Assembly (NCBI GenBank): GCA_905234745.1
Contig: CAJOJD010000007.1
Coordinates: forward strand, 50,361 to 114,360
Length of the DNA: 64,000 nucleotides
Source of the DNA: an uncultured Bacteroidaceae bacterium
GTDB lineage: Bacteria; Bacteroidota; Bacteroidia; Bacteroidales; Bacteroidaceae
Reading direction: 5' to 3'
Below, in pieces: positions 6,861 through 26,828 of this stretch (positions are counted from its first letter, which is position 1; each line of letters starts with the position of its first letter). The position numbers and the translations under genes were made by a program. Below the pieces are notes generated by a model. The model was not told the DNA's origin. It made no database searches and was given only the letters and a program-made list of their open reading frames with translations.

Positions 6861-9800
6861 TCACTTCAGGTCTGAAATGTCCCTAATCATACGTGCTCTC
6901 AGAGCGTCATGTTCACGTGTTATCTGCTTGCGCTGCTTGCGGTCTTTAACGTCAATCAGGCGCAGATACTTGTCATAAGCATCCATCTCCTTCTCATAGC
7001 GTTTCCACACCTCCAGCACCTTGTAGTCGTAACTACCGGTTACTTTCTTATACTGCTTCTCATCACCGGCTTTCATGGCCTCCTTGAGCCTGCGCTCGGT
7101 ATCCTGTGCAACCTCGCGGTAGTAGTAATACAAGTCTGTCACATGAGCGTTACGATATCGGTCATCGTTCCATGTCATCAGACGGCGCAGGAACGGAGTA
7201 TCACTTATCTTCACCTCACCGCCCAGCGCGTTCTCCATGAACTTAAGGCCCTTACCTACGGTAGTGCCCAGACCACCGGTGTAACCCTCAACGATATGCT
7301 CCATGATATTGGGGTTCCAGTTCACGGCACCGGCCTCATACTCGTTACCACCGCTTATCCAGTTCAGTGCCTCTGACAGCGCCAGATATACCTTGCTGGT
7401 GTTTTTAAGCGGATCGCGGTATGCTGGTATATGTTTCTTCTCCTCATCACTCAGGAACCGGTTATCATTATATACCCTTGCGCCCTTGTAGTCTTCATTC
7501 TGTATTACCTCCACAACAGGAGTGGTGATACTGGGCAGCACGGCAGCCAGGCCCGATGTCGCATCCAGCGGAGCAATCTCACCAATCATGCTTGCCACCT
7601 CACCCACGATGTTACGGTGCGGCTCACGTCCTAGCGAGTGGTTTACAATCATATCGCCCATGCCGTAGAACACACGTGCCTCCTGCGGCAGTGCCCATTT
7701 CAGGTACACGCCCTTAAGGCCCAGCAGCATATTGTTACGGCGTTCATAATCGGGTACATCCAGATACTGGTCATCATCGTCACCGTCACCATCCAGCATA
7801 GCATGCAGCACAGCGTTCATGGCACCCAGCATCAGGTAACCGCCCACCCACAAGCCCAGCTTGCTCTTATCTTTCTGAGCCAGCTGGTACATGGCGTTAA
7901 GACCCTGGACCGATGCGTTAAAGAACATGATCGCGTGACGGCCATAAACTGACAGCATGCTGGCCGATACGGCAAACAGACGTTCTATGTCATTGAGCTT
8001 ACGACCCTCTCTTGTGCGCAGGAACTCACTTTCTTTCCAGGTGATACCCTTTCCGCTACCTTTGCGGTTGAAATTTACCGTAAGCTCCTTGGCATCGGCC
8101 ACGCTCTCCACCACGCTCTTACCCTGCTCGCGGCTGGTAAGGTATGCGGCAAAACGTGTCATCTGCTCAAAGCTCTCGCCAAACTCCTGTACGGCATCCA
8201 GCGCAGCGCCTGCACGCTCAATGGCAGTACGTGTGTCACCTGTGTATTTCTTTATCTCAGCCTCCCACACGTCAGTGCCTCGCACCGATGTGTAACCGGT
8301 CACACCGCCGTTCTCTACGAATGAGCGGTAATTTTGCTCCAGCTCTCCTGTTCCCAGCTTGCCGTTCTGCAGGTCACGTTTCATACGTACCACTTTCAGA
8401 GCCTGTTTGAGGTTCTTACGGAAAGCCTCGTTGTACGCCTTATCTTCTTTGATGTTCACTGACATGAGTGCAAACAGCGTATCACGCTGCAGGTTACTCA
8501 GCCAGAACTCAGGGTTAAGTGATGTGTTGAGTGATGCAAACGCACGCAGGAACTTAAGCGTAGCCTTGGTAAACTCATTCTTGCTGGCATCCACATTCAA
8601 CTCGCCGTTGATCGCCTGAGCTGCACGCGGATTGCCGTTTATGAACATGAACATGTCACGGCCACCCAGCTTGAACGCTATGATATGTGACTTAACCTGT
8701 TGCTTGCTGGTGTTCACCACGTAGTTCAGGCGCTGCTTGTCAAGCTCACGCACGCCACGGAAAGCACGGTGTTCACGTGCCAGCTGCTTCATCTCATTCT
8801 CCCACTGCTCATACTCGGCCTTAGCCTGGTCGGTAGACAGTGCCTCGGTAAACGGCGGATACTGCGGCTCAAATATGGTGCGTCCCTCATCATCCAGCAG
8901 TGCATCGCCGTTCTCATCCACCTGCTTCACATACCACACGTCACTGACCAGCACCAGGTCATTGTCCTTGTGGCGGTTGCTTACAAAGTAATACAGGGCC
9001 AGCTTGCTCTCGTTCTTTATGTCAGCAGCGATAGCTGAACTTGCCATGGCACCGATATATGCCAGCGGTGACTCAGCTCTTGTCTTACGGCCCTTAGCCT
9101 GCTTGAGCGGAGCCACAAACGTAGCGTCAGCGTTACTGGTATAGTAAGAGTACATATCCTCCGGAGTGGTCTCGGCAAATCCGCGTAGCGGCACGTAATA
9201 CTTGAACATATCACGCACATGCTCATACTGGCCGCGGCTCATCATGTTAGCGTCATACTGGTGTTTCAGTACCGCCTTGGTAGCGCCGTTAATCTGATTC
9301 CACAGCTCCGTCATCAGGTCGCTGCCCATACGCTTCTCAAAGTCTGCAATTTCGGCATCCGCAGCCAGCTCCATGTCTGTCATATTGTCAAACATAGGCT
9401 TACGTGCAGCCAGCAGCCGTTTCTCATACTCCTCCTGCGTCTCGGTAGTAGGATCATACGGATTGATGTTCTCATACTTAGAGTAGAGACCGGTCAGACC
9501 GCCGTAATCCTTCTCACGCAGTTCCTTATACTTGCTGTCAGTACCGGACTCAATAGCTACAAAATGACGGTCCAGTATATCATCCTCACGTGATATACGT
9601 TTCTTTATCTCCTCGTCCGATACGTCAGGATGCTGCTTGGCAAACTCCTGTATAGAGGTTACTTTGGCGTCATGGATAGCCTGATAGAAAGCGCGTGCAT
9701 CGCGCTTTGCAAACACATCGTTACGCTCCACACCATGCTTAAGCATCAGGTAACGCTCCACCTCGTCATAACTCAGCCCACGCTCGTCAATGATAGCCTG

Positions 9801-12800
9801 CACAGCCTTCATCATCTTATCCCAATGCTCGCGCTCCCATTTCTGCATGGCGGCCAGGCCCTTTGAACTCTGCTGGTTAAGAGACTTGCGTATATCCTCA
9901 AATCCCTGTGCTTTCTTGCCCGATGCTTTCTCCAGCGCATCCACAAGAGTATTCACGCTCTGGAACTGGTCGCGGTATGTCTCATCCATACGAGACCACA
10001 TACGGCTCACCACGCGGTTATAAAGGTTGGCGGCGCTTTCAACTGTACGCTCCTGTGCCTGCTGCACCCTTGCAGCCTGAGCGCCATCGGTTCGTATCTC
10101 GTTGTCAGCGACACTCAGCCCTTGGTTATGAGCCAGTGCAGCGCCACGTGCAATAGTAGCGATAGACTTATCGCCCTGATGTGCGTTCTGGAACAGGATA
10201 TAACGTAAAGCTCTGCCCTCAACCCATTTCCAGCCCATCGGTGCCTTATCCAGCACCTTGTCAAGCATATCATTGAACGCGGTCTCTATCGTGCTCCAGG
10301 TGTCTTGTGACTCAGCATCATCAGTAGTGCTCTCAGCCATAGAACCCAAATACTCCATCATAGCGCGTGCGGTATCCCAGCCGTAACTCTGCTGCGCAAT
10401 CTCCACCACCTTCTGACGGAACTCCGGCAGTTCGCGGTATAGCTGCTGTGCGAACTCACGTACCGCATCCCCGCCCAGTATATCACTAAGCGGCATTTCA
10501 CGGCTCATAGCCATGAGTGCTGCCTCCAGCGGTGAGTCTCCGTTCAGCGAGCCAATGTTGATAGTCAGCTTGCCGTCCTGATAAGAACTCTTAAAGCTGT
10601 TCTTAGGCTCGTTGATAACCTCGACACCTACACCCAGGTTAGCGCCCACAGCCTTGCTGCGCTCAGTCATATCAGCTGCGCTATCCTCATAATCGGTAGG
10701 CTCAACGGTCTGATACCTGATTTCATCGGCAGAACCGCCATATTCTATGTCAGGTTCCGAAAGTCTGCCATGGTCCTTGTAGCTGTAATAATTATACAGA
10801 CCACCGTCATTGGCAGTCTCACCGCCAACCATATCCAGCAGTATGGTACCGTTTGCGTTCAAAAATGTCTTGATTATACGGCCGGCCACAGTATCAAGCT
10901 GGTTAGTTGTTCTTGGATCAACACCGCTGCCATATACTACCACAGCGGGTGCGTTGGTGATACCTGCGTAATAAGCGCAGTCAACGGCAATCTTGTTGAT
11001 GGTTTTGACATCATCCAGTCCTGTATATGGCAGGAAGAAGTTGCCTACTACAATATTGTTACGGTTTATGCACAGGACACTTATCTTGTCACGTTCACCC
11101 AGTCGGTGTGATGACACGTAAGCAGCCACATCACGGCTGGTGAGTATTCTCTCACCTCTCACGGGATCGTAATCCTTACTGAACACAATCTCGTCAAACC
11201 GATAAGTAGGAATCTTTACATCACCCTCACGTCCGGTAAAGTTTTCTGGCATACTTGAATCAAATTCATCCATGTATGTACCATATACGCCACGTGTGGT
11301 GTCTATGATAATGCCGGGTTCCAGTTTCTTACCCAGTATCTTCTGCATCTCAGCCCACAGCTTGCGGTCATTGGTAGAGCTTATGATATTACCGCTGGGG
11401 TGATTATGTACAAAGTAAACCTTGTCAGGCTTAATCTCCTTCATCATCACTGTCAGCGGACTCAGGTCCACATTGACAGCATCAATATGTCCCATTCCCA
11501 CATGCAGAACCGTAGGCTTGCCGTCCTTGACAAACACGATAAAGCTGTTCTCTACAGCCTTGGTCTCCAGCTTGCGGAAAATGTATGCCACATCCTCCAG
11601 GCTCTCTATCCTGTCACGGCCTATGAAACTGAAATCTCCGGCTTCGCTCAGCTTACGCTCCACAAGACAGGTCTCACCAGGCTCCAGCTTACGGAGCGGC
11701 TTTACAATATCGTCTGTTGATTGTTCGCTTGGAACGCCGGTCTGGGAATCTCCCGACCTCCGTACTGCATCGGCTCTCCGTCCAGCATCGCTGTCGGCTG
11801 TTCTACCGGTCTGCCGTTGTATGTCAACTGTTCCTCGCTCATTAGTGCGGTTATTTGATGCAAATATAGCGTTTTCTGCCGACAATCCATCACCTTCATC
11901 ATTCAAAGTGCGTATTTCATCCTCGTTCATGCCAGTCACGTATGACAGCATCTTAACCTGATTGTCGGTCAACACCTTCTTGGCACCACGCACGTTACCT
12001 GACGGCTGGCCGCTAATCTTCACGCCCAGCTGCTCCTGCTCCTGCTCTGCAATCTCACGCAGCAACGGCAGCAGCTCAAACTCCACAAGGTCCTGCATCT
12101 CACCGCCTGTAAGGTCACGGCGGCCCTCCTCACGGTCTATGGCATCCAGCCTGCGGTACTCATCAACCAGGTCACGTACGCGCTCATCGTCCATGAGCAC
12201 GTTACTCATCTCCACGGCCGATACCAGACCTTCCTCACTCATGTAAGAGTAAATGCCGTCCGGATTTTCGTAGTAATCCAGTATCTGAGTAGCGTTGCCG
12301 GTCACGGTCTGATAGGATGGGGTGCTGTCATCATCGCTGTTTATGTCCTCATCAGCCAGCTCAGTATGCAGCACAAATGATGACGGGTTCTTTTTCAGCT
12401 CCTCGGCGTACTTGGCCTCCTTGGCGGCCAGCTCCACTTTCATCTTCTCAGTCAAGTCCTCCACCAGCTTGGTCTGCTCTTTCAGCTTATCCTCATCGGT
12501 AAACGGCTTGCCCTTACGTGCCAGCATCAGCTCATTATCCTTTTTAAGGCGGTCAATATGCTCTGACAGCAGTTCCAGGTTATGCCTCATACGGCTGCCG
12601 TTAGCCACGTTCAGCTTAAAGTATTCAACAATATCCTTAGCGGCAGTGTAACCGCCAGGCATGTCAACCGGCTCGGTGAATCCGCACTCGTCACATACAA
12701 ACTGCAGCTGTGATGAAACCTTGGTGTTGAACTCACCCTTGTTAAAGTCATAGCCGTAGGTGCTTACCATGTTCACAATCACATTTGCCTTGACACCATC

Positions 12801-15800
12801 AAACGTCATGGTATATGTGTGCTTCTCCTCATGGCGTTCATCATGCAGGCGGCGCAGGTCGGCTATGATTGCGCTTATAGGTTCCTGTATCTTGGCCTTT
12901 ACGGCAGCGGCCACAGCCTTGTCATCCTTGCATTTCACACCCTCTACGGCAATCTCCTTGACTATGCCATCGGGGAACGCTTTGATTGTGTTGTCAAGAG
13001 CCTGCTGATACTTGGCCTGGTTGCTTTCGGCCAATCCCAGCTGGGTGTTGTTTTTCTTCAGCTTGTTCTCAATGTATATCTGGTCCTGACGGTGCTGCTC
13101 TTTCTTGCTCTGCAGTTTACGCAGCTCACGTTCAGCCTGTGTCTTGAGCAGTGCATACTCACTACCTGACAGGATAGCTACAGGATTGTCAAACTCGCCT
13201 TCTTCCTCCTCCTCAAGCACGCGGTCCTCCATTCCGTTCTGCAGCAGGTGTTTGCTGTCCATCACGGAGTTTATGAACTTGCTCTTGGTTGACAGACGCT
13301 GGTATGCGGTCACGTCAAGTGAATCCTCCACACCAAACCTTATCACACGTACCGGTATGCCCCATTCCTTATGCAGGTTACCCTGACGCAGTATGCGGCC
13401 CATACGCTGTGTATAATCCATCGGTCTGTCAGGTGCATCCAGGTGAGCCTCAAAGAACAGACGCTCCTGTATGTTGACACCGGTACCCAGCGTAGCGGTG
13501 GTTCCCATGATCACACGTATCTCACCGTTATTGACCTTGGCAAATATCTTCTCCTTGGCTGCTGTTGACATGCCTGACTCCATGATGATAATCTGGTCGG
13601 CAGGAACGCCCCTGGCTATCAGCTTACGTTTTATTTCGTCAAACAAGTTAAAACGCGTAACCTTGCGGCCGCCCTCAAAATCCTTACGCTGGTAAATATC
13701 ACAGAACAGCGCACATGTACCCTTGTAACGCTTGCTGTCCTCCAGCGCTTTCAGCGTCTCCTCAACGACACTGTTGGTCTTGCTCTGCGGCTCGTCAGGA
13801 GAGTCGGTCGATACCAGACGTGTGTCAATAGCCGCTTTTTTTGCTATTGTAAACATGTTAAGCGGTAGAGTCCTGTTCTCCTGCTTCTCCTTGCCTGACA
13901 TGTTCTCAAAACGCTCCAGCTCGGCCCTGACAGCAGCCATGATGGTTGTGAGTGATGCAGACTGAGGCAGGTATATGTCACGTACCTGGTTCTCATGTTT
14001 CTCACCCTTTTCATCGGTCCAGTCCTCCATACGCGGCACCTTGTCATTCAGAGTCTCGCCGCCACCGGCCACAGCCTCCTTGGTCAGTACCACGTCAGCT
14101 ATCGTCATCCATATACGTACCAGCTCGGGCAGGTTGCTATAAGCGGCAAAACGCGTAGTCTCCTTGAACTTACCGCTTATGGTAAACTCAAGGTTCTGCT
14201 GTATGGAGCCAAAGTTGCGGACAAAATCATCAAAGTAGTAGATATGGTTCTTCCACATGAAATCATCCGGCAGCAGATACTTCATAAACGTCCATATCTC
14301 GGCAGCCGTGTTGCTTATGGGAGTACCGGTAGCAAACACCACGTTCTTCCAGCCCACGCGGTCAAATATGGAACGTGTCTTAAGGAATACACCTGCGGAA
14401 CGTTTGCTGCTCTTAACGTCCACACCCTTTACGCCACGCTGCATGGCAGTGGCAAATCCCAGGTGCTTGTATGCGTGCGCCTCGTCAATCAGCAGCGCGT
14501 CAATACCCATCTCGTCAAAGTTGGATACATCATCGGTACGTCTATCCAGCTGGCGCTGTGCCTTTACCTTGGTGTTGTTGATTGACTCGGCCTGACGTTT
14601 GGAGTCTTTCTTCTTGTTCTTGGTGGGTTTTTCACCGGTCTCATACTCATACTTAAGGTCGGCAATCTCCTGCTGCAAACTGCGGCGTACGTTCTGGTCA
14701 CCGCTCTGCTCGACTTGTGACAGGATATACTCCTTCTCCTCAATCTTACTTTGTATGAAAGCCCTGCGTCTCTCCTCGCTGTCAGGCATCATCTCAAAGA
14801 CAGACTGCGGCACTATGATAAGGTCCCAGTCATTATAACGTATCTTGGCATAGAAAGCGCCACGGCCCTCTGCTGTGTGGTCTTGCTCTGATAAGGTAAG
14901 TATCCTGGCGCTGGGATAAAGCTCCTTGGCGCTTGACACAAACTGGCCCAGCGTAGCGTTCTGCACCACAATCATAGGTTTCTTGGCGGTACCAAGACGG
15001 CGCATCTCCATGGCAGCGGTTATAAGCGTGAAGGTCTTACCTGTACCCACTTCATGAGCCAGTATCACCGGCTCGGTGGTGGAACGTATCACGGCACGTG
15101 CCTGGTGCGGACGCAGTGACAGCGGCTTGCCGTTGGCAAGTACGTTGGCCATTCCGTTGAAATGCTCAGGTACGTATATATCCCTTATCTGCTTGGGGAC
15201 CATGGCATTGAACAGGTCATTGTATATCTTTGACACATGAGCGGCCAGCTCCTCATCGCCCTGCATCTTCTGACGTGCCCACTCCTTAAAGTCGTCACGC
15301 AGCTCGTTCATCTTGGTGGTAGCGGCAGCCGTAGCCTCCTTATCACGCCTTGTCTCTTTCTCATCGCCCACGGTCTCGGTCTTTTTAAACTCAACCGTCT
15401 TGTTGTTCATGGCGGCGATCATAAGCTCATGACCATATACGGTCATGTTAAGCGCGTTACTGGTGACACCTGCGCTGCGGTTCTGCTCGTTCCTGCCGTC
15501 TATGTAGTATATGCTATCCTCTTTGAGTTGCCATGAGCCACCCACCTTTACAGGCTGGAAGCGGTCATTGACACCGAATTTTTCACGTGCATAGTCCACA
15601 TACAACGAAACAGGCAGCCAGTCACTACCCAGCGAGAACTCAATCAGGTGTGCCGGTATATCTGCCGGTATCACGTTCTGCAGAGCCTTGATGTTGTTGT
15701 CATAACGTCCGTCTGTGTTATGCTCGTTGGCATACTCCAGTTTCTCACGCACGTTACCTGACAGGTACTCATACTCAATAACCACCTCACCGCTCGCAGG

Positions 15801-18800
15801 TTCCTCAAAGCCCACGCCTGCAGCAAGTATATCTTCCCTTACCTTATCCTCACTCAGGTTCATGGCCTGTGCTATGAACGGGATATTGATACGGCCAAAC
15901 TGGTTCATTGAAACAATGACACCATCCTGTACCGTCTCAGGGGTAGGGGTGACGGGAGCGTTAAGCTGACGTACATAGAACAGCTGTGCCTTCTTGACAT
16001 CGGCTGTCACCTTGCCGTCCATGTCTTTCTTCTCCTTGTATATCTCCACCTGCTCGGTAGCGCTGTACTCAACGTCATTCTTCAGGAATGATATTGATGC
16101 GTTACGTGTCAGGTATCCGTACTTCTTCACAAAATCGTCATAGACGCGGTTCAGCTTTTTCAAGAGCGGCTGTAATCCCTCGTCCGACTCATTCTTCAGC
16201 TGGTAGTCCAAAGTCTCTTTTATGGCCGCTTTCAGCGCGTCATAATCGGCCAGCACCTGTGCTTTGGTGTACTTGCCCTTTACCTTGTTGCTGTTTATTC
16301 CAGGTACCGGCACAGCCTTACCTCTGCGTGACTGGCAAATCTCGCCCTTGCTGTTTACAATCAGCTGGCCCTCCTTAACGCCCTGCGTATCTTCAAGCGC
16401 TGCTGTCGTCATGGCAGCAGGAGTAACCTCCATAGGCTCGTACTCCTTCATCTGTGACACCCATTTCTTAAGGCGCTTAGCCTGGTCAATCTTATCTGAC
16501 GGATAGAGTGCCGCACTGCCTGCACGATAGGTGTTGCCTTTCTCAAAGCCAAACGCCATCTCACCGCCCATATATTCGGGATGCTGCGTAAAGTAGGTGT
16601 TCATCTCCATGGTAGCACGGCCTATTATAGGTTCAAAGCGGTGCTCCTTACGGTTATACTCTGTCTCACCGGTCTCATACTCCTCAGAGCGTACCACCTC
16701 GGTACCAGTCACGTCAATAGCGTCAGGTGACACCTGATTGTTCACGCGCTTACGCACCACAATGATGTCAGCCGTTGCACCGGTACCAACAAACGTCTCG
16801 TTATTAAGACGGAAAGCGCCAATCACGTCACAGCCGCCCTCATTCACAATCCACTGACGCAGCTTACGGCTGGAGCTATCCAGCGTGCCACGTGACGATA
16901 TGAATATGCCTACACCGCCAGGACGCAGTTTACGTATGTTCTTGGCTATGCAGAAATCATGAATCTTACTGCCAAACAGGCGTGTCAGGTCTTTCTCCTT
17001 GGCGTCATATATCTTAAGGTTCTCACCAAACGGAACATTGGTGATTGCAAGGTCCACCGATGCGTTGTCAATATCCACGGTCTCAAATCCACGGATATAC
17101 ACCTGAGCATCGGGGTACAGCTGTTCCAGTATTCCACCTGTAATGTTGTCCAGCTCAACGGCGGTAATCTGGCTTGCCTCGTTCATACCCTTGGGTATGG
17201 ATGCAAGTATGTTACCTATGCCGGCCGAACCCTCCAGTATCTTTCCACCCTGGAAACCCAGCTTTGCTGCCACATCCCACAAAGTATCTATAATCTCGGT
17301 GGGAGTGTAATAGGCCGTGTTGATTGACAGCTGTGCAGCGTCAAACTCATCACCGGTGAGCAGCGAACGCAACTCACGGTTTTCTTCCGAATAAGAGTTA
17401 TTGAAATATCCACCCAGACCGCCCCAGCCTGTAAACTGGCGCAATACTGCCATCTGCTCCTTAGTTGCCTGCTTACCTTCGGTCTGCAGCTCTTTCAGCA
17501 GACGGATAGCGGCAATGTTAGCCTTAAAGCGTGCCGCCGGTGTCTTAGGATAAACAGCCTCGCCCTTTGAGACGTGGTTGTTACGTTTGTTCTGTCCGCT
17601 CAGTCGCGGTATGCGTCGCACGGATCCTCCAGGCTGCTCACCTGACTGGCCTCCGCTTTCTCCTGCTCGGTCAGCTCCTCCAGCTTCTTGCCTGTCCGTT
17701 TCAGGTACGCTTGCAGCGCTGCCTCCTTCTCCTTCTGCAGGTCGAGTATTGTCGGCTGGCAGTCCTTGGGTGCGTACTGCATCATTTCCTTCAAGTCCAT
17801 TATCTATCGGTTTAATGTTATCCCACTCAACAAGCTCATACATGACAGGCGCAAAGCCGCTATCCAGTACCGGACGTCCGCCGTCAAACTCATATATGGT
17901 AGCCTCCTGTGTCTTTCCGGTATAATCAGTGTACAGCACCCTGTCACCAATCTTGTAACCGTTCAGTTCGGTCACAACCTCCTTGGCAGGTGCGTTAACT
18001 GCTGCATCCTGCGGTGCCGGCTCATTCTCCTCCTGCTCATCCTCCATATGATAGATGTCCGCAAACAGGTCACCCATCAAGCCATCACCGCTACTCTGCG
18101 AATTTACCTCTTTTTTCTTGGATTTACCAGTTTTTGAGGGTTTTTCTGCCTTTTCATCAACACTTTGCGCAGTCGCTGCTGCCGGTGTCTCAACTTGCTC
18201 GGGCAAAAACTCACGCGCTACTCTGCGTATGCCGCTCAGCAGGTCCTGATATGTCACGTTATACGGAGCAAAGTTGTTGCTGCCGTAACGCTCAAATCCG
18301 CCTACACCATTGGTATTCTCCACACGGTACAAAATGGCGGTATTCTTACCCATCGGGCCTACGCCTACTGCAAGATCATCACCGTAACCAGGAAGATAGT
18401 CCTCACCTCTCATGTAGGAGTTATACTCAGCCACGGTGGTAGGAGTCACCTCAATGTTCACATATAGCTCGCGGCCTTCTTTCAAGGGCAGACGGAACGT
18501 GACGTCACCGCCTGCAGGTGCCACGTTGGTTTTGGCTATACGTTTTTTATCTACCTCAATGCCAAGGTCGGCCGCCAGCTTACGTGCCAGCTTCTCCGCA
18601 TCCTTACGTGCTTTCTCCTCGGCAGATTTCATGTAACCGTAGCTCTCATGGAACTTGCTGCGGTCTGATGTGTCGGCTGTGTAATAGCCCAGCAATGCCA
18701 GCTGGCCGTCTATCTTATCCAGCTGCTCATCAATGGCCGTTATTGTTTCGGCTGCTCGCTCTGGCTCGGCTGGCTCCTCAGTTTGTGCAATAGATTGCGC

Positions 18801-21800
18801 TTGCTCTGCAACAGATGCTGCTTGGCTGACAATAGCTGCTGTATCTGTTGCTGTTTGCTCATCTGTCTGTTCTGTTTCATATTCTAAGTTGTTGAATTTG
18901 GTTGCATCCTCTACGTTATCAAACAGGAAACCCTTGGCACCGCCGTATGATGAGTAATAGCCACCCAGCTCTTTGGCACGTGCTTTCAGTTCCTTAAACT
19001 CATCAGCACTCAGGCGGTCACCTGTCAGACGTACAATAGACATCTCTCGGCCGGTCTTGGTATGTGTGTACGTGCCAATCTCACCTACGGTCTTGCCGGC
19101 AGTCTGCTCGGCTGCTGGCGCACTCTCTTGCGGCTGCTGTGCCTCCACCTCCCTGCGCTGCTCTGATATATCCTCTCTGTGATGACGTACAAACGGAATG
19201 AAATCATCCGCATCCACGTTCATCATGGTAACAGGCAGGAATCCTGTCGGGTTGTATTCCAGGTTATATGTGCCGTCAGTATTACGGCCCACCACCTTCA
19301 ACGCGCCGTCAAAGCCCTGCGGTTTCTTCTTCAACACCACAAGGTCACCTTCATGTACGTCCAGCTCGTCCTCGGCCTGCTGCTCAGGCTCGGTCTCCGT
19401 CTCAGTCTCGGTTTCTTCCTCCTCGGTCACCTCCTCCTGAGTTTCCTCTACCGTCTCGGCAGCCTGCTCATCCAGTGTAATAGCGTTCACGTCAATGGCA
19501 TCAACATCGGCTGCGCTATCCATATCGTCACGGTACGGCTCCATGCCTGGCAGGTCACGCGCACCGTTGTATATGGATTTCAGATAGGGACGTATAGCGT
19601 CACCCAGGTCCTCAATCATGCGCTTTGCAAAATCCACGAACTTACGTGCGCCAGCCTCCACATGGAAAGCCGCCATCTGGGCACCGATAAAGAACACCTC
19701 CGGATCAAAGCCTACATTAAGGTTACTGAGCTTCTCACGCATCTTGCGTTTCAGCTCCTCATACTTATCGGCTGTAATGATGGTATTCTGTGAGCCGTAG
19801 GCAGGAGCGGTCGGTTCAGCGGACTGTATCTGTGTCAGGTTTACCTGCTCTACAAATCTGTCAATGCCGGTATGGCCTATGCCTGTGCCGCCAGCTATGT
19901 TCTTTGCGTACCACTGCGCATAGTTCAAGGCATGACGTATTGCATCCTCACGTGTATTATACGGATAGTTGCTGGGGTTGGCTGGACCACCAGACATATT
20001 GCCGTTATCTGCATGGACCTCAACCTTGGACTCCCATTTGCCGCCCTGCTCATACAGGTAAATGCGGTTCTCGCTGTCAGGGAATGATATGGTCTCGGTA
20101 GGTTCTACCTTACGGCCGTTGGTTTCCTCGGTCTCATCCTCACCCTCATCGGTCTGTACGACCTTCTTGGGTGCGGCTTTCTTGGCGGCAGGCTTCTTGG
20201 TTTCCTTCTTTGTCTTGGCCTTGCCTTTCTTGGGCTGCTTGTCAGCTCTGTTGTCAAAGGTAAACAACTCGCCCTGCACTGCCAGCGTATCAGGAACAAC
20301 GTCTATCTCGCCGTCCTCCTTCATAGCCAGCGGCAACACCTTGGTCTTGAGGTGTTCTATAAGGTTATCAACATCTTTAAGATTATAATGATTGCCCGGA
20401 TGCTCCTTACGGAAATTCTCCAGTGCTACAATAGCAGCACGCAGCGCGTCAGACTTGGTGTTGAACAGATGTCTGCTCATTGACAGCGAGCCGCCGCCCA
20501 TCTCATAGTCCGCGCTTCCGCTGATATCCCATAAGCCATCATCGTCACGAAAATACTGAATGTACGTAGAACTTGAGTATTGGGATTTCTTAACTGACGG
20601 CAGTCTGACAAACAAAGGATTGGAACAGCCGTTGTGTCCTCCTTCGGTCCAGAATCCATACTGGTTCTTTACGTATTTGGTCTCAGTAGCTCTGAACCTG
20701 TTTGCTTTCAGGTACTTTACAATATAATCCGCTGTGGCAGTAGCCTCAGAGCGGTCTTTGTATTCGCTCGTTTTCCAGCGCCATACTATCACTCTATGAT
20801 CGCCGTATATGGGGAAATGTGCGTCATCAATCATAACCGGTTCAAGAGTCTCACCGGTACGCTCGCTCTTGTAGGTTATGTAAATGCCGCCATATACAAA
20901 CTGCTCCCATTCATCCTGAGTGAACTTGGTAGCCTGTATCTCCTTCTCGCTGGCACCCTCCTCATACTTGGGTGCTTCCTCCAGCTTATCGGTTACTATC
21001 TCATCTTCGGGGTTTTCCTGTGTCTGCTCGATAAAGTCCTCCTCACTCAGGTTATACTTGGCCGTAAGGTTACGTACCATATCCTCTATGGGCTTAAACC
21101 TACGTACGACCAATGCCTGCTGAGTGTCAATCCTACGCTGTGCAGCTGTTTTTATGGCCTTATCGGTTGATTTCAGATCACCGTCCAGGTCAATATACAA
21201 CTGGCCCAGTTCATCATTGAACTGCTCCCAGTCTTCATACTCATCGGTAAACTCGGCTATCTCCTCATCACTCATCAACTCCGGCAGGCGCGCATCGGCA
21301 CCAGCCTCAATGAGTTTGACGGCAGCCCACTCGCGGTCAGTGGGAGTTACAGCTGTGCCATTCTGCGCATCACTGTCTCGTACTGGGCCTCCTTGCTCAG
21401 TCCCTTCAGTTCCTGTTTGGTTACCAGTCCTGTTTTCAGGGCTGCCTTCAAGTTGGCTTCGTTGGTCTGCTGTATTGCCGTTTTCAGCAGTTCTTCCTTG
21501 GATTTCATCGTTATATCTGTTTTGTATGTATGCTGTTATCTCCTTGATAGCGTCCTGAGCGGTACGGCCGCCAAACACATCCTCTATGCCTGCGCTGTCA
21601 GCGTAGGACCGGTTATATATGTCAAGCACCGCACGTACCTCCAGCGAGCCGCTGTTAAGGTAAATGGCAAACCACTTGGCAAGATACAAATAACTTTCGG
21701 TATTGTCGCTTTCAAAGAGGTTTCTTTGTCTCAGATAATCACCTACATTACCGCCAAATCCCTTATGGGCCTCATAGCAGATAGCGATAGCATCCTCCAT

Positions 21801-24800
21801 TATATCCTGGAGCGAGTATTCACCCAACGTGCGGTTGGCGGTCAGTGCGGCCAGTGAGCCAACGATGGAACGGCGCACGTTACCCATGCCGTCTGCCATC
21901 AGACGGCGCACGGTGGTGTCACGTCCGTTAAACAGGTAACCAATTATAAGAGACTCAATATACTCCTGTCCGGCACGTGACAATATGCCGTTATCCATAT
22001 ACTGCTCTACGTCCTGCTGGTTCAGTACACCGTCAGCCATAAGCACCTTCATAAGCTCGGCCGATGCCGTCTGGTCGCGGTACATATCGGCTGTGTTGTC
22101 AAATCGTGACACCACATCGGCCAACTTGGCAAAAGTAGTATCCTTGACAGCCTTACCGCTCTTAACCATCTGCTCGGTCTTGTTCTGTGTCTTACGCTCG
22201 CTCTGGTTGAACATAGCCATAGTCTCGGTGGTGTAGGGCATATCCTCATCCAGCACGAACACCAGTCGCGGATGCGCATACTGCTTAACCTGCTCATCGG
22301 TGAATCCATACATGGGTGCATCCTGCATCAGGCTCTCCACATACTGAGTGTCGGTACCCTTGTCAGCAGCTATCATACCGGCCATGGTGCGGTCATTACC
22401 TGACAGCACCACACCGTCACGGCTCACAATCACCGGCTCCTGATAAGCACGCTGGTCATAGATACCGGCTTTCTGACGTACAGACTGCTGTGCGGCCTCG
22501 TCATGCTCATAGTCGCGGTCGTTAATGGAGCTGCCGTTCTCGTTGGTGGGATAGCCCTCGGTCGGACGGAATGTCTCAGGGTTATGTGACGGAGTGACGG
22601 CACCGCTCTCCACCAGCTCAAAGTGTCCCTTGATCTTAAGTCCACCAGCCAGTGTACGTGTGGTAGCCATACCCTGCAAGCGCTTTCCTGCGTTAAATCG
22701 CTCGGTTATGCCAGGCAGTCCGGTAGTATCTGTGTTGATAACATCCTTACGGCGTGTCTCCTGCTCCTTGCTCTCTTTGTTCATCAGAGCCACGATGTCA
22801 TTCCAGAACATGTGTATCCTGGTATTCTCTTTCAGCTGGTCATTCACCGCTTTCAGCTCCTCAATAGTAGCAGGGTTGCGCTTCTCCAGACGTTTCTTCT
22901 CCTCACGCAGCTTATCGGACCTGTTCTTGGCAAACTGACGTATCAGCGAGTCCTCATAACCTGCCTCACGCAAACCGGCCAATGCCGTAGCTGCATCGGG
23001 AGCCGCCTCCCAGTTATATGTAGTGCTGCCCTTCTTATCGGTAGTGGTAGGTATGCGGTCCAGTACTGACTGCTGGCGCTCTCCGTTCTGCTGTATATAA
23101 CTGGTCATGCTGGCCTGCAGCAGTTCTCTCAAGTCATCAATGGTCAGGTCACCGCCCACGTTCAGTCTGTCCAGTATATCCTTGACAAACTCACACAAAC
23201 GCTGCCATAAAGTCTGTGACTCCTCGGTGCTCAGGTCCATATCCTGCGCCATATACGCAATAAACTCATCGGCAGCCATACGCTGTGTCTGCTGCTCGCT
23301 GAGTTTCCTGGACGCTGTACGTGTCACCAGCCCTGAATAATACTGGCGTGCCTTATCATCCATCAACTCGTTATATACGCGGTCCAGCAGCGTGTCATAA
23401 TTGCTGCCCAGCAGCTGGCGTAAGCCCTTATGTGCAATCACCTCATGCAAAACGGCGCTATCCACCATCTTGGCATCGGCAATGTTAGGCAGGAAGAAAT
23501 TCACCGAGTCACTCTTTGGATCATACCATGCAGTATGAACGCGTCCGCTCTGCATTTCCTTACGCACGCGCTCATCAGGAATCTCGTCAAGAGTAGAATA
23601 GGAGTTAATCTTCACGCCCAGCTTCTGCTGCCAGTCAGCGATACGCTGTGTCACGGCGTTGTTACCTGCCGTAGCAGGCTGGTTGTGTCTTTCCAACACA
23701 TCACGCAGAGAGCTAACCCGGCCTGCAATATCAGTCAGCTGCTTGTCAATGGCATTACGCTTGGTAAAGTCCAGCTCAGTCTTACGCTGCGCCATCAGTG
23801 CTTCCGCATCCTGCTGGAGCTTACCTATGGCCGCGTTGATATAATCGTTGCTGTCAGCACCATTGTCGTTGTTACGTTCATCGTTCCATCTGGCCCACGC
23901 CTCGGGATCATTGTTCCATAATGCGTTTTCATCTACGCTGCCGTCCTCTTTAAGCGGCAGCGGATTATTACGGAAATCATGGTATATGTCATGCGGTCCC
24001 TCCTCAACCTCTTTCTTGGTCGGTTCGGTCCGCTCCAGCACGCCAGCGGCCTCGTTGGTACCAATAAACTGCGCAACCTCATCAGTTGACAGCATCAATT
24101 GTTCGTTCTCGCCGGTGTTGCTGTTTCTTACAAACACTTTCAGCTGCGGCTCGCCCTGCTCGCTGTCCTGCCAGCCCAACACCGCAAACACGGAATAGTC
24201 CTGGCCGTCACGTGTCAGCCGGCCGCCAGCCTTGGCTATGTTATCGGCCTTGGCCTTAATGTCATTCATGTACTCCACGCGGTTCACCTCATCCTGCTCC
24301 AGCTCGGCATCCGTCTTGCTTGTGACAGGAGTACCCATGACAGCGGCCATATCCTCAAATGAACGCTGGTCGGTTGTGCTGTCCTCCAGCTGGAGGATAA
24401 CGCCGTCAGGCGTTAACTGAATGATAGTAGCCGTTACAGGAGCCTCGGCTGTTCCCACGTTTACCGTATTGCCAGGTACCAGACGGCTACGCACTTCATT
24501 AAGCTGTGTGTCACGCTCCGTCTGCATACGTGTCTGCTCGGTGGTCTGCTCCTTCTCCTTTATGTCAAGGTTCAGATAGTCATTCATGGCCATCTCACCG
24601 GTATCAGTCATGGTGCCGTCCTGCACACCCTGTTCCAGGTCTGATATATTGATATACCTGTTTGTGCCGTCAGGATAGACAACAGCCAGCGACTGCGCGT
24701 CACCACCCACAACATAAGCCTCGTTGCCCTCGGCATCAGTGATACGGCGTACCACCTGCTGCTTGTTATTTCCTTCACCGCGGTCCATCCAGAACTGACG

Positions 24801-26828
24801 GCCCTGCATCTTGTTATTCAGGTTCAGAAGGTCCTCGCTGCGTTTTATATCCTCCTGCTCATCCATGGCGCCCACCATGACCTTATAGCGTGATGCGTTA
24901 ATGGTATGACGCAGCACGGCCTCATAAGCCTCGGCAGGATTACCGCCGTTTTCAACCATCTGTTTATAAACCTGAGACATGTGCTGTCCCAGCTCCTGCG
25001 GAGTTTCCAGTTGGTCTATCATATTAAGCGCAGCATGCTTGTCATCATCGCTCATCTTGGTTTTATCCATGATGTCAAGCAGCTGTGCTTTGGTGTTACT
25101 CTGAGCCTTGGATGCTACACCATACTGGACTGCGGTAGTAGGCAGTGAGAACAAGGCCATTGGTGCAAACGAGCCGGCAGTGATTAACTGCTGATCCACG
25201 GTAGCAAAATCCTTTAGCGCATCCTTATCAACACCTGTAACCACACGCAGCGCGTTTCCGGTCCATTCCTCCACAATCTCCTCAAAGAAACCGTTGTAAC
25301 CAGCCTGTTTCATCGTGGCTGCCACAGGAGAGTTGCGTAATGCCTTGGCCCAGTTGGGGAATTTAACTTTGTTCAGCGGCAAACCAATAAGGTCCATCGG
25401 CTTGCTGCCCACGGTCTCTGACACGTTCTCTATCACAACATCACCGATAGCCTTGGCAATAGCCTTACCTGACAAATCAACACCGCCCTTATCATTGAAA
25501 CGGAGCATGTTATCCTGCAGCATGGCATAGGATGACGGCATTACAGGTGTCATGGCCATAGCCTTTATGGTACCGGACAGCGTTTCGGCTCCCAGTTTTT
25601 TCAGTGTGCCACGTGCTGCACCCTCAACAAGACGGCCTGCGGCCTTCTCTGCCACAGCCTCACCAAAACCTCCGTACATAAGGAAGTCGGCCATAAAGCC
25701 AAGTGACTGTGCTGTGCTCTGTCCTGCCTGATAACGGCGTGAAATACGACTGCGTGACTCATTGCCTATCTTCTCGCTCTGTGCGCCTTCAACCTCGGCT
25801 TTCTTGGCAAACGCCTTGACAAGCTCTTTCTCACCTACATTAAGGTAGTCCAGGTTATCAATGGCACCACTCTCAGCCATCTGCATTATGTTGGCCTGCT
25901 CACCGGCTTTATCCTGTATCTTCTTGATCGCGTCAATAAGGTGCATGTTAAGTCCCGCCTTTGTCAGCCTGGCAATAGAAACAGCGTCTGGTGCACCATC
26001 GGCCACGGCACGCCAAAAGCCGGTCTTGTCTGCGTATCGGGTAGGGGCACTGGCGGTTTTCTTGGCATCCTCCAGCATGAGCCTTGCAGCGACAAGGCTT
26101 TCCCTTGCGCTGTTATAGTCCTTATCACTCTTTCCAACATAAGGATTGACAGCACCGCTGCCCATACCATTACCTGTATATCGAGCATAGTTGTAATCAC
26201 GCTCTGCTTCGGGATTGTCGGCCTTAAGCTGTTTCAGCGCATCATCAATATGTGTGTAATCCTCATCCAGCGATGCGTTCACCGACTTCCAGTATTCCTT
26301 ATAGACAGGATTGTTCTCCTTCTCGGCATACAGCTGTTTAAGCTCATCCTTAATCTCACGCTTACGCTTACGCTCAGGTGAGTTGGCCTGCTCGTTCATG
26401 CGCTGTATGCTTGCCGCATCAGTAAGTCTGGGTGTCTTGGGTATATCCTTATCGGCTCCCAGTCCATTATACTCCTTGTTAAGGGCCTCAATGCGGTTAT
26501 ATGTATCTGTGAGTTTGTCACCCCAGTAGTTGACAGGCTGCACGCGGTTTATCTGAACGTCAGGATGGTCCTGCAGCAGCTGAGCGCTGTTACGTTTCAG
26601 CTTCTCGCCGGACCATAAACCTGAGCCAGCAGGCACACCGTTCAATGACAGCTGGAAACTATCAGTGTCATTGATGTCATCATCAGGGTTTACAGGTGAT
26701 ACGGTTGCTACCTTGGCATCAGGATGATCCTTGAATAACTCATCTTTGTTACGTTCATAACGCTCCTCATCCCAAGTCGCAATCTTGCTGCTGCCTGGAA
26801 TGGTTATGTAATACTGCTTGTCTGTCAT
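6861..26828 (-). CDS. Giant polyvalent phage protein (6,655 aa): zincin motif, DdrB/ParB-like, N6-adenine methylase, SNF2-like helicase, RadC/JAB-like, LPD38-like
   Basis: Single uninterrupted ORF. Motifs: HEVIAHKGL (about 23429-23448), VLSGNDRTMAG ParB-like (about 22.4 kb), methylase AITNVPFGENLK (about 17.03 kb), Walker A HEVGTGKT (about 15.04 kb), DEAH box LLIDEAHAYKH (about 14.48 kb), helicase-C TQRMGRILRQGN (about 13.4 kb), JAB/RadC HNHPSG (about 11.40 kb), LPD38-like C-terminal region (about 7.2-8.6 kb). Confidence 0.9.
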   Translation of the reverse strand: MTDKQYYITIPGSSKIATWDEERYERNKDELFKDHPDAKVATVSPVNPDDDINDTDSFQLSLNGVPAGSGLWSGEKLKRNSAQLLQDHPDVQINRVQPVNYWGDKLTDTYNRIEALNKEYNGLGADKDIPKTPRLTDAASIQRMNEQANSPERKRKREIKDELKQLYAEKENNPVYKEYWKSVNASLDEDYTHIDDALKQLKADNPEAERDYNYARYTGNGMGSGAVNPYVGKSDKDYNSARESLVAARLMLEDAKKTASAPTRYADKTGFWRAVADGAPDAVSIARLTKAGLNMHLIDAIKKIQDKAGEQANIMQMAESGAIDNLDYLNVGEKELVKAFAKKAEVEGAQSEKIGNESRSRISRRYQAGQSTAQSLGFMADFLMYGGFGEAVAEKAAGRLVEGAARGTLKKLGAETLSGTIKAMAMTPVMPSSYAMLQDNMLRFNDKGGVDLSGKAIAKAIGDVVIENVSETVGSKPMDLIGLPLNKVKFPNWAKALRNSPVAATMKQAGYNGFFEEIVEEWTGNALRVVTGVDKDALKDFATVDQQLITAGSFAPMALFSLPTTAVQYGVASKAQSNTKAQLLDIMDKTKMSDDDKHAALNMIDQLETPQELGQHMSQVYKQMVENGGNPAEAYEAVLRHTINASRYKVMVGAMDEQEDIKRSEDLLNLNNKMQGRQFWMDRGEGNNKQQVVRRITDAEGNEAYVVGGDAQSLAVVYPDGTNRYINISDLEQGVQDGTMTDTGEMAMNDYLNLDIKEKEQTTEQTRMQTERDTQLNEVRSRLVPGNTVNVGTAEAPVTATIIQLTPDGVILQLEDSTTDQRSFEDMAAVMGTPVTSKTDAELEQDEVNRVEYMNDIKAKADNIAKAGGRLTRDGQDYSVFAVLGWQDSEQGEPQLKVFVRNSNTGENEQLMLSTDEVAQFIGTNEAAGVLERTEPTKKEVEEGPHDIYHDFRNNPLPLKEDGSVDENALWNNDPEAWARWNDERNNDNGADSNDYINAAIGKLQQDAEALMAQRKTELDFTKRNAIDKQLTDIAGRVSSLRDVLERHNQPATAGNNAVTQRIADWQQKLGVKINSYSTLDEIPDERVRKEMQSGRVHTAWYDPKSDSVNFFLPNIADAKMVDSAVLHEVIAHKGLRQLLGSNYDTLLDRVYNELMDDKARQYYSGLVTRTASRKLSEQQTQRMAADEFIAYMAQDMDLSTEESQTLWQRLCEFVKDILDRLNVGGDLTIDDLRELLQASMTSYIQQNGERQQSVLDRIPTTTDKKGSTTYNWEAAPDAATALAGLREAGYEDSLIRQFAKNRSDKLREEKKRLEKRNPATIEELKAVNDQLKENTRIHMFWNDIVALMNKESKEQETRRKDVINTDTTGLPGITERFNAGKRLQGMATTRTLAGGLKIKGHFELVESGAVTPSHNPETFRPTEGYPTNENGSSINDRDYEHDEAAQQSVRQKAGIYDQRAYQEPVIVSRDGVVLSGNDRTMAGMIAADKGTDTQYVESLMQDAPMYGFTDEQVKQYAHPRLVFVLDEDMPYTTETMAMFNQSERKTQNKTEQMVKSGKAVKDTTFAKLADVVSRFDNTADMYRDQTASAELMKVLMADGVLNQQDVEQYMDNGILSRAGQEYIESLIIGYLFNGRDTTVRRLMADGMGNVRRSIVGSLAALTANRTLGEYSLQDIMEDAIAICYEAHKGFGGNVGDYLRQRNLFESDNTESYLYLAKWFAIYLNSGSLEVRAVLDIYNRSYADSAGIEDVFGGRTAQDAIKEITAYIQNRYNDEIQGRTAENGNTADQRSQLEGSPENRTGNQTGTEGTEQGGPVRDSDAQNGTAVTPTDREWAAVKLIEAGADARLPELMSDEEIAEFTDEYEDWEQFNDELGQLYIDLDGDLKSTDKAIKTAAQRRIDTQQALVVRRFKPIEDMVRNLTAKYNLSEEDFIEQTQENPEDEIVTDKLEEAPKYEEGASEKEIQATKFTQDEWEQFVYGGIYITYKSERTGETLEPVMIDDAHFPIYGDHRVIVWRWKTSEYKDRSEATATADYIVKYLKANRFRATETKYVKNQYGFWTEGGHNGCSNPLFVRLPSVKKSQYSSSTYIQYFRDDDGLWDISGSADYEMGGGSLSMSRHLFNTKSDALRAAIVALENFRKEHPGNHYNLKDVDNLIEHLKTKVLPLAMKEDGEIDVVPDTLAVQGELFTFDNRADKQPKKGKAKTKKETKKPAAKKAAPKKVVQTDEGEDETEETNGRKVEPTETISFPDSENRIYLYEQGGKWESKVEVHADNGNMSGGPANPSNYPYNTREDAIRHALNYAQWYAKNIAGGTGIGHTGIDRFVEQVNLTQIQSAEPTAPAYGSQNTIITADKYEELKRKMREKLSNLNVGFDPEVFFIGAQMAAFHVEAGARKFVDFAKRMIEDLGDAIRPYLKSIYNGARDLPGMEPYRDDMDSAADVDAIDVNAITLDEQAAETVEETQEEVTEEEETETETETEPEQQAEDELDVHEGDLVVLKKKPQGFDGALKVVGRNTDGTYNLEYNPTGFLPVTMMNVDADDFIPFVRHHREDISEQRREVEAQQPQESAPAAEQTAGKTVGEIGTYTHTKTGREMSIVRLTGDRLSADEFKELKARAKELGGYYSSYGGAKGFLFDNVEDATKFNNLEYETEQTDEQTATDTAAIVSQAASVAEQAQSIAQTEEPAEPERAAETITAIDEQLDKIDGQLALLGYYTADTSDRSKFHESYGYMKSAEEKARKDAEKLARKLAADLGIEVDKKRIAKTNVAPAGGDVTFRLPLKEGRELYVNIEVTPTTVAEYNSYMRGEDYLPGYGDDLAVGVGPMGKNTAILYRVENTNGVGGFERYGSNNFAPYNVTYQDLLSGIRRVAREFLPEQVETPAAATAQSVDEKAEKPSKTGKSKKKEVNSQSSGDGLMGDLFADIYHMEDEQEENEPAPQDAAVNAPAKEVVTELNGYKIGDRVLYTDYTGKTQEATIYEFDGGRPVLDSGFAPVMYELVEWDNIKPIDNGLEGNDAVRTQGLPADNTRPAEGEGGSAASVPETDRQEAGGADRAGESGGQSGEQPGGSVRRIPRLSGQNKRNNHVSKGEAVYPKTPAARFKANIAAIRLLKELQTEGKQATKEQMAVLRQFTGWGGLGGYFNNSYSEENRELRSLLTGDEFDAAQLSINTAYYTPTEIIDTLWDVAAKLGFQGGKILEGSAGIGNILASIPKGMNEASQITAVELDNITGGILEQLYPDAQVYIRGFETVDIDNASVDLAITNVPFGENLKIYDAKEKDLTRLFGSKIHDFCIAKNIRKLRPGGVGIFISSRGTLDSSSRKLRQWIVNEGGCDVIGAFRLNNETFVGTGATADIIVVRKRVNNQVSPDAIDVTGTEVVRSEEYETGETEYNRKEHRFEPIIGRATMEMNTYFTQHPEYMGGEMAFGFEKGNTYRAGSAALYPSDKIDQAKRLKKWVSQMKEYEPMEVTPAAMTTAALEDTQGVKEGQLIVNSKGEICQSRRGKAVPVPGINSNKVKGKYTKAQVLADYDALKAAIKETLDYQLKNESDEGLQPLLKKLNRVYDDFVKKYGYLTRNASISFLKNDVEYSATEQVEIYKEKKDMDGKVTADVKKAQLFYVRQLNAPVTPTPETVQDGVIVSMNQFGRINIPFIAQAMNLSEDKVREDILAAGVGFEEPASGEVVIEYEYLSGNVREKLEYANEHNTDGRYDNNIKALQNVIPADIPAHLIEFSLGSDWLPVSLYVDYAREKFGVNDRFQPVKVGGSWQLKEDSIYYIDGRNEQNRSAGVTSNALNMTVYGHELMIAAMNNKTVEFKKTETVGDEKETRRDKEATAAATTKMNELRDDFKEWARQKMQGDEELAAHVSKIYNDLFNAMVPKQIRDIYVPEHFNGMANVLANGKPLSLRPHQARAVIRSTTEPVILAHEVGTGKTFTLITAAMEMRRLGTAKKPMIVVQNATLGQFVSSAKELYPSARILTLSEQDHTAEGRGAFYAKIRYNDWDLIIVPQSVFEMMPDSEERRRAFIQSKIEEKEYILSQVEQSGDQNVRRSLQQEIADLKYEYETGEKPTKNKKKDSKRQAESINNTKVKAQRQLDRRTDDVSNFDEMGIDALLIDEAHAYKHLGFATAMQRGVKGVDVKSSKRSAGVFLKTRSIFDRVGWKNVVFATGTPISNTAAEIWTFMKYLLPDDFMWKNHIYYFDDFVRNFGSIQQNLEFTISGKFKETTRFAAYSNLPELVRIWMTIADVVLTKEAVAGGGETLNDKVPRMEDWTDEKGEKHENQVRDIYLPQSASLTTIMAAVRAELERFENMSGKEKQENRTLPLNMFTIAKKAAIDTRLVSTDSPDEPQSKTNSVVEETLKALEDSKRYKGTCALFCDIYQRKDFEGGRKVTRFNLFDEIKRKLIARGVPADQIIIMESGMSTAAKEKIFAKVNNGEIRVIMGTTATLGTGVNIQERLFFEAHLDAPDRPMDYTQRMGRILRQGNLHKEWGIPVRVIRFGVEDSLDVTAYQRLSTKSKFINSVMDSKHLLQNGMEDRVLEEEEEGEFDNPVAILSGSEYALLKTQAERELRKLQSKKEQHRQDQIYIENKLKKNNTQLGLAESNQAKYQQALDNTIKAFPDGIVKEIAVEGVKCKDDKAVAAAVKAKIQEPISAIIADLRRLHDERHEEKHTYTMTFDGVKANVIVNMVSTYGYDFNKGEFNTKVSSQLQFVCDECGFTEPVDMPGGYTAAKDIVEYFKLNVANGSRMRHNLELLSEHIDRLKKDNELMLARKGKPFTDEDKLKEQTKLVEDLTEKMKVELAAKEAKYAEELKKNPSSFVLHTELADEDINSDDDSTPSYQTVTGNATQILDYYENPDGIYSYMSEEGLVSAVEMSNVLMDDERVRDLVDEYRRLDAIDREEGRRDLTGGEMQDLVEFELLPLLREIAEQEQEQLGVKISGQPSGNVRGAKKVLTDNQVKMLSYVTGMNEDEIRTLNDEGDGLSAENAIFASNNRTNERGTVDIQRQTGRTADSDAGRRADAVRRSGDSQTGVPSEQSTDDIVKPLRKLEPGETCLVERKLSEAGDFSFIGRDRIESLEDVAYIFRKLETKAVENSFIVFVKDGKPTVLHVGMGHIDAVNVDLSPLTVMMKEIKPDKVYFVHNHPSGNIISSTNDRKLWAEMQKILGKKLEPGIIIDTTRGVYGTYMDEFDSSMPENFTGREGDVKIPTYRFDEIVFSKDYDPVRGERILTSRDVAAYVSSHRLGERDKISVLCINRNNIVVGNFFLPYTGLDDVKTINKIAVDCAYYAGITNAPAVVVYGSGVDPRTTNQLDTVAGRIIKTFLNANGTILLDMVGGETANDGGLYNYYSYKDHGRLSEPDIEYGGSADEIRYQTVEPTDYEDSAADMTERSKAVGANLGVGVEVINEPKNSFKSSYQDGKLTINIGSLNGDSPLEAALMAMSREMPLSDILGGDAVREFAQQLYRELPEFRQKVVEIAQQSYGWDTARAMMEYLGSMAESTTDDAESQDTWSTIETAFNDMLDKVLDKAPMGWKWVEGRALRYILFQNAHQGDKSIATIARGAALAHNQGLSVADNEIRTDGAQAARVQQAQERTVESAANLYNRVVSRMWSRMDETYRDQFQSVNTLVDALEKASGKKAQGFEDIRKSLNQQSSKGLAAMQKWEREHWDKMMKAVQAIIDERGLSYDEVERYLMLKHGVERNDVFAKRDARAFYQAIHDAKVTSIQEFAKQHPDVSDEEIKKRISREDDILDRHFVAIESGTDSKYKELREKDYGGLTGLYSKYENINPYDPTTETQEEYEKRLLAARKPMFDNMTDMELAADAEIADFEKRMGSDLMTELWNQINGATKAVLKHQYDANMMSRGQYEHVRDMFKYYVPLRGFAETTPEDMYSYYTSNADATFVAPLKQAKGRKTRAESPLAYIGAMASSAIAADIKNESKLALYYFVSNRHKDNDLVLVSDVWYVKQVDENGDALLDDEGRTIFEPQYPPFTEALSTDQAKAEYEQWENEMKQLAREHRAFRGVRELDKQRLNYVVNTSKQQVKSHIIAFKLGGRDMFMFINGNPRAAQAINGELNVDASKNEFTKATLKFLRAFASLNTSLNPEFWLSNLQRDTLFALMSVNIKEDKAYNEAFRKNLKQALKVVRMKRDLQNGKLGTGELEQNYRSFVENGGVTGYTSVRGTDVWEAEIKKYTGDTRTAIERAGAALDAVQEFGESFEQMTRFAAYLTSREQGKSVVESVADAKELTVNFNRKGSGKGITWKESEFLRTREGRKLNDIERLFAVSASMLSVYGRHAIMFFNASVQGLNAMYQLAQKDKSKLGLWVGGYLMLGAMNAVLHAMLDGDGDDDDQYLDVPDYERRNNMLLGLKGVYLKWALPQEARVFYGMGDMIVNHSLGREPHRNIVGEVASMIGEIAPLDATSGLAAVLPSITTPVVEVIQNEDYKGARVYNDNRFLSDEEKKHIPAYRDPLKNTSKVYLALSEALNWISGGNEYEAGAVNWNPNIMEHIVEGYTGGLGTTVGKGLKFMENALGGEVKISDTPFLRRLMTWNDDRYRNAHVTDLYYYYREVAQDTERRLKEAMKAGDEKQYKKVTGSYDYKVLEVWKRYEKEMDAYDKYLRLIDVKDRKQRKQITREHDALRARMIRDISDLK
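11702..11842 (-). CDS. Nested +1-frame ORF inside the giant gene (46 aa), candidate overlapping gene
   Basis: MSEEQLTYNGRPVEQPTAMLDGEPMQYGGREIPRPAFQANNQQTIL*; TATATTTG (-7-like) about 20 nt upstream of the ATG; coincides with an R/D/G/T-rich linker in the main frame. Confidence 0.35.
   Translation of the reverse strand: MSEEQLTYNGRPVEQPTAMLDGEPMQYGGREIPRPAFQANNQQTIL
17600..17800 (-). CDS. Nested +1-frame ORF inside the giant gene (66 aa), candidate overlapping gene
   Basis: MDLKEMMQYAPKDCQPTILDLQKEKEAALQAYLKRTGKKLEELTEQEKAEASQVSSLEDPCDAYRD*; ordinary codons (AAG, GAG, CTG), while the main frame there is a GGA/CGA-rich low-complexity linker. Confidence 0.55.
   Translation of the reverse strand: MDLKEMMQYAPKDCQPTILDLQKEKEAALQAYLKRTGKKLEELTEQEKAEASQVSSLEDPCDAYRD
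18740..18880 (-). CDS. Nested +1-frame ORF inside the giant gene (46 aa), weaker candidate
   Basis: MKQNRQMSKQQQIQQLLSAKQHLLQSKRNLLHKLRSQPSQSEQPKQ*; same +1 frame and linker position, but Q-rich. Confidence 0.25.
   Translation of the reverse strand: MKQNRQMSKQQQIQQLLSAKQHLLQSKRNLLHKLRSQPSQSEQPKQ
21347..21508 (-). CDS. Nested +1-frame ORF inside the giant gene (53 aa), candidate overlapping gene
   Basis: MKSKEELLKTAIQQTNEANLKAALKTGLVTKQELKGLSKEAQYETVMRRMAQL*; below the 60-aa track cutoff; main frame here is EIQGRTAENGNTADQRSQLEGSPENRTGNQTGTEGTEQGGPVRDSDAQNGTAVT. Confidence 0.5.
   Translation of the reverse strand: MKSKEELLKTAIQQTNEANLKAALKTGLVTKQELKGLSKEAQYETVMRRMAQL

Follow-up and report, generated by a model that had tools for sequence, protein, structure and literature searches.

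A small gene very probably nested in the +1 frame of an interdomain linker of DarB-like giant phage genes

A giant gene with a nested reading frame

The DNA considered here is a stretch of 64,000 nucleotides (nt) from an uncultured Bacteroidaceae bacterium (assembly GCA_905234745.1, contig CAJOJD010000007.1, positions 50,361 to 114,360), referred to below as the window, and it carries on its minus strand a single giant open reading frame (ORF) within which a second, much smaller ORF, designated N2, is read in the +1 frame. Methylase-helicase genes of this kind belong to the class of polyvalent proteins with a DarB-type methylase-helicase dyad (Iyer et al., 2017; PMC5512222). The features on which the argument turns are the following.

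6861..26828, minus strand: giant ORF of 6655 amino acids (aa), encoding a DarB-like polyvalent protein with a DNA methylase-SNF2 helicase and other domains
17600..17801, minus strand: linker, the giant-frame reading of the DNA that holds the nested ORF; Gly/Glu/Arg/Ser-rich, fast evolving, kept open
17600..17800, minus strand: nested ORF N2, the main subject of this report, with 66 codons from an ATG start, in the +1 frame relative to the giant ORF
16746..17546, minus strand: N-6 adenine methylase domain, after the linker, used as the query for relatives

Assignment of the giant ORF, and thus of the host gene, to the DarB-type polyvalent class rests on a DarB-type methylase domain in a large multidomain phage protein, as judged by tblastn to DarB-like annotations; the nearest named relative of the methylase domain is the 'DarB-like antirestriction' protein of Bacteroides phage BKO1-TP3, at 57% identity, and this phage also has a +1 ORF beginning with ATG at the place matching N2. 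A preliminary description of the window had reported a 66-aa nested ORF at 17600-17800, and its coordinates, strand, start codon and frame all proved correct, as did the proposal that it spans the linker. One codon ahead of the ATG there is a TAG in the +1 frame, and the terminating TGA falls where the conserved sequence of the giant frame resumes, and thus the nested ORF occupies the linker from end to end, the linker itself ending at the start of the conserved methylase region.

The window was compared with a relative from IMG/VR. There are 10 differences within N2, 7 of which fall at the third position of nested codons, corresponding to the first position of giant-frame codons, and only 3 of the 66 nested residues are changed. 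In the sequences flanking N2 the differences between the same two genomes lie mainly at giant position 3, and the phase of substitution within N2 departs from that of the rest of the giant gene (chi-squared p=1.9e-4).

Selection, open host frame and start signals

The ratio of nonsynonymous to synonymous substitution rates (omega) was estimated by per-frame counting for 48 pairs of relatives, with no locus shared between pairs. Omega was 0.24 for the nested frame and 1.64 for the giant frame of the same DNA, and it was 0.15 for the giant frame just downstream of the nested region. By this measure the nested frame is constrained and the linker frame relaxed. Across ten phages the nested frame has 21 invariant columns and the giant frame has 3.

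Although the amino acid sequence of the linker is free to change, the giant frame does not close. Resampling the synonymous codons of nested genes at 104 loci gave an expectation of approximately 406 giant-frame stops over the nested genes, of which none was seen, while the third frame contained 632. Both frames are evidently kept: no stop interrupts the giant frame, and the nested frame is under constraint. Among 52 non-redundant nested starts in Proteobacteria-type phages, 49 have a Shine-Dalgarno match of 4 nt or more, which supports translation of the nested frame from its own start in those phages; the corresponding frequency was 19.6% among 4550 control starts (Fisher p=7e-31). The nested proteins are acidic, with a median isoelectric point (pI) of 4.7-4.9.

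Distribution among relatives

A methylase profile recovered 80 viral loci, 76 of them with enough upstream sequence to be screened by composition and length for protein-like ORFs at the linker site. A protein-like +1 ORF was present at 72/76, the same screen found a protein-like +2 ORF at 0/76, and two control places further downstream yielded protein-like ORFs at 1/76 and 0/76. Three of the loci that failed the screen (L195, L207 and L209) have TnpV-like +1 ORFs that are recognizable by eye or lie farther away. A homologous linker devoid of the +1 ORF is the pattern that the preliminary description had named as contrary to its proposal, and among the 76 loci a +1 ORF is missing solely from L203, which does not have this linker type.

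Erwinia phage PEp14 likewise has a +1 nested ORF at the site, and its nested protein matches 21 annotated phage records, in all of which the nested sequence is in methylase frame +1 (21/21) and in none of which it is annotated as a small gene of its own (0/21). A profile detected 70 viral and 22 genome loci, 84 of these 92 being nested within an open giant frame and 8 not. The nested gene is absent from P1 darB and from the conjugative or Firmicutes-type relatives examined (L217, L219, L022, L024, L029 and L032), and thus it is not general to DarB-like methylases. At the level of sequence, these comparisons show purifying selection on the nested frame, a linker frame that is free but without stops, and a place and frame that are nearly universal among the phage relatives examined.

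The occupant of the site changes more readily than the site itself. A methylase tree with 59 rows calls for 14 changes among the five nested types, the minimum being 4, and BKO1-TP3 falls inside the clade of another nested type with support of 99/96, from which it follows that nested types have been replaced between close methylases. Two individual loci deserve mention. At L052 an intact nested gene (3992-4327, plus strand) stands beside an apparent decayed remnant of a giant gene, and in Pseudomonas phage Itty13 (L037, MW460249) opposite-strand hypothetical proteins are annotated over the open giant frame, a possible misannotation.

Relation to TnpV, DUF1896 and stand-alone genes

The nested proteins of the Proteobacteria type form a clan in which 24/48 members match TnpV (PF14198) at E<=0.01 and no other Pfam family. 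Most of these matches are below the curated cutoff, and the Firmicutes-type L204 is above it (28.6 bits vs 27); a search of plasmids and phages with this TnpV-like protein found nothing. TnpV is of similar size, but it is a stand-alone gene of mobile elements, and N2 of the window does not match it even at E<=10. Stand-alone relatives of the Proteobacteria-type nested family occur at L114, L118, L128 and L131, so that the stand-alone homologs sought on the strength of the preliminary description exist for this family; for that of the window none was found. Family searches with the N2 peptide returned only noise below the cutoffs, and tblastn of the peptide in phages and plasmids gave no matches.

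A second family, weakly linked to the nested proteins, is DUF1896 (PF08989; PG0816, PDB 2APL). The AlphaFold model of nested family A7, from the Proteobacteria-type clan, is helical and confident over residues 1-70 (predicted local distance difference test, pLDDT, 91-96), and its best match in the PDB, although weak (E=0.53), is 2APL, a DUF1896 protein. Profile comparison with hhalign connects A7 to family A8 (E=1.9e-6, probability 90%) and A8 to DUF1896 (E=1.7e-4, probability 50%; reversed control 0.24), the direct comparisons of A7 and of the window family, A6, with DUF1896 not being significant. In conjugative elements of the Bacteroidales, a gene confirmed as DUF1896 is located immediately upstream of an unfused methylase-helicase gene, and in 7/19 DUF1896 loci the two genes share 11-14 nt at the methylase start. 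The likeness thus comprises a small gene directly upstream of a DarB-like methylase-helicase together with a weak resemblance of profile and fold; the differences are that DUF1896 is a separate and longer gene (~147-151 aa) with an overlap of just 11-14 nt, and its homology to the nested proteins is tentative.

Two further observations concern the stand-alone genes. Genes resembling type I restriction-modification HsdM/HsdS, as judged from the sequence by eye, are found close to the TnpV-like genes, stand-alone or half-fused, of L128, L131 and L135. The L128 gene of Pseudidiomarina (4974-5762, plus strand) encodes 262 aa, combining a TnpV-like domain with a hydrophobic C-terminal part that is probably membrane-spanning.

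Origin and function of the nested gene

The reading that we favor, with considerable confidence, is that N2 is a small gene, live and with a translation start of its own, in the +1 frame within a disordered linker of a DarB-like giant gene, that it was probably engulfed when the flanking ORFs fused, and that its product may serve as a chaperone or mask. In outline, small genes beside a methylase-helicase gene would have been engulfed as the ORFs on both sides fused through them. Phase +1 would suit such an event because stops in the host frame (T|AA, T|AG, T|GA) require a T at the third base of a nested codon and could always be avoided by a synonymous change there, whereas phase +2 could meet host-frame stops that are unavoidable (ATG|A). 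Size, acidity and position suggest that the nested product, small and acidic, partners the methylase-helicase effector, with which it would be co-produced, and by analogy it may bind the effector, as a chaperone or mask dedicated to that protein, prior to packaging and delivery.

The preliminary description had taken the nested frame to be the older one and the linker to be overprinted on a swallowed gene. This derives support from the Proteobacteria-type clan, given its resemblance to TnpV, its stand-alone relatives and its weak link to DUF1896; the gene appears to be live, with nothing of the relic about it, and for the window family the argument stands on position and frame. Family A6 resembles the other nested clan in place, frame, size and acidity, and from position we infer its common descent with the Proteobacteria-type clan. 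Several considerations weigh against the favored reading. Family A6 has no homology to the TnpV-like clan or to DUF1896 detectable by hhalign, and the AlphaFold model of N2 is of low confidence (pLDDT 64.6). At L223, the case worked out, DUF1896 is in methylase frame +2 and not +1, and therefore the unfused operon is not a direct precursor of the nested form. Some of the 48 pairs behind the omega values are near-duplicates of each other, part of the count of open giant frames is biased, as openness of the giant frame was a condition for calling loci nested by profile, and the role of chaperone or mask is argued from analogy only.

Alternative explanations differ first in whether the nested frame is a gene at all. 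The linker of the giant protein is rich in Gly, Glu and Arg, and GA-rich codons shifted by one read as Lys and Glu, such that an untranslated +1 ORF of Lys/Glu/Leu/Ala-like composition might arise by chance; the contrast in omega between two frames of the same DNA (0.24 vs 1.64), the enrichment of Shine-Dalgarno matches, the conserved start and 21 invariant residues, the existence of stand-alone relatives, and the near emptiness of the control places and of frame +2 together render this explanation exceedingly improbable. The constant +1 phase would also be expected of a programmed frameshift, in which ribosomes in the giant frame slip at the linker to give an upstream-half protein with a nested C-terminal tail, and in Sinorhizobium phage PBC5 (L041/L043) the giant ORF is indeed split, with its upstream half in frame with the nested sequence. 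PBC5 is one old sequence, though, and its split may be a frameshift sequencing error or a real variant. Elsewhere homology starts at the start codon, which is preceded by a Shine-Dalgarno match in 49/52 cases, in many loci, that of the window among them, a +1 stop is found between one and five codons ahead of the start, and L114, L118, L128 and L131 are stand-alone genes, all of which makes frameshifting very unlikely.

Explanations that accept the gene and differ over its history or activity carry more weight. The linker may have come first, with nested genes arising inside it de novo in the +1 frame and the stand-alone copies representing escapees; in line with this history, the site holds several unrelated nested types within the Bacteroidales, searches gave no stand-alone homolog for the window family, and extra nested ORFs (N1, N3 and N4, described below) are found in other linkers. 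We nevertheless regard it as doubtful, given that the Proteobacteria-type clan is linked to TnpV (24/48) and more weakly to DUF1896, both of them stand-alone families, that DUF1896 is a separate gene at the equivalent place beside unfused methylase-helicases, and that constraint on the nested frame coexists with rapid evolution of the linker. Similarly, the nested protein could itself be anti-restriction, as an acidic DNA mimic or an antagonist of type I restriction-modification acting beside DarB and not as its chaperone or mask. Its acidity (median pI 4.7-4.9), the non-giant contexts near HsdM/HsdS-like genes at L128, L131 and L135, and the reported protection by DarB against type I restriction (Iyer et al., 2017; PMC5512222) are in keeping with this possibility, to which we assign a minor share of the probability, as neighbors from defence islands are common and the fold search produced no match to known DNA mimics.

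Additional nested ORFs and comparison with known systems

When the giant gene was scanned for phase over all 6274 codons that aligned, only three zones emerged in which differences at position 1 exceed those at position 3, and each of them coincides with a +1 linker ORF (N1, N2 and N3). The ORFs other than N2, together with a weaker fourth, are as follows.

21347..21508, minus strand: N1, nested +1 ORF of 53 codons, MKSKEELLKTAIQQTNEANLKAALKTGLVTKQELKGLSKEAQYETVMRRMAQL; phase-shifted substitutions relative to G101, chi-squared p=1.4e-4
11702..11842, minus strand: N3, nested +1 ORF of 46 codons from MSEEQ, in a linker near giant aa 5000; phase-shifted substitutions relative to G101, chi-squared p=2e-3
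18740..18880, minus strand: N4, weaker nested +1 ORF of 46 codons, MKQNRQMSKQQQIQQLLSAKQHLLQSKRNLLHKLRSQPSQSEQPKQ; weak phase shift in the window pair, p=0.019

It is likely that the giant gene of the window holds two more nested genes, N1 and N3. N4 is a possible third: its motif is seen again in the +1 frame of L136, L141, L145, L146, L154, L163 and L183, and a phase shift is found in the pairs L137/L138, L145/L146, L171/L173 and L177/L183. It is about an even question whether giant polyvalent genes are in general two-layered, with a chain of effector domains in frame 0 and linkers that serve as sites for exchangeable +1 small genes, several per gene, the products of which would partner the adjacent domains.

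The gene Rz1 of phage lambda, embedded within Rz on the same strand and in another frame, is a known parallel. As in the present case, a small gene lies fully within another phage gene, on one strand and in a different frame; the present host differs in being a virion-type giant polyvalent gene in which the overlap is placed in interdomain linkers, several nested ORFs share one host, and close host genes have exchanged their nested type. No earlier description of such a nested gene was found in the open-access literature, and the text of Iyer et al. (2017; PMC5512222) mentions no overlapping genes, frameshift or TnpV. If the favored reading is correct, a family of small genes in phages has been overlooked because annotation retains the giant ORF only. 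The loci would also make up a naturally occurring collection of overlapping genes, numerous, independent and all in a single phase, suited to testing why that phase is +1 and how disordered linkers permit overprinting, and they would point to hitherto unstudied proteins that partner the anti-restriction effectors delivered by phages.

Protein-like +1 ORFs were also observed upstream of N2 in further linkers of Bacteroidales-type giant genes, beginning MNELRxK at L144, L147 and L149 and MSKLKEQ at L143 and L148. Also within the window is a phage portal protein gene (323-2233).
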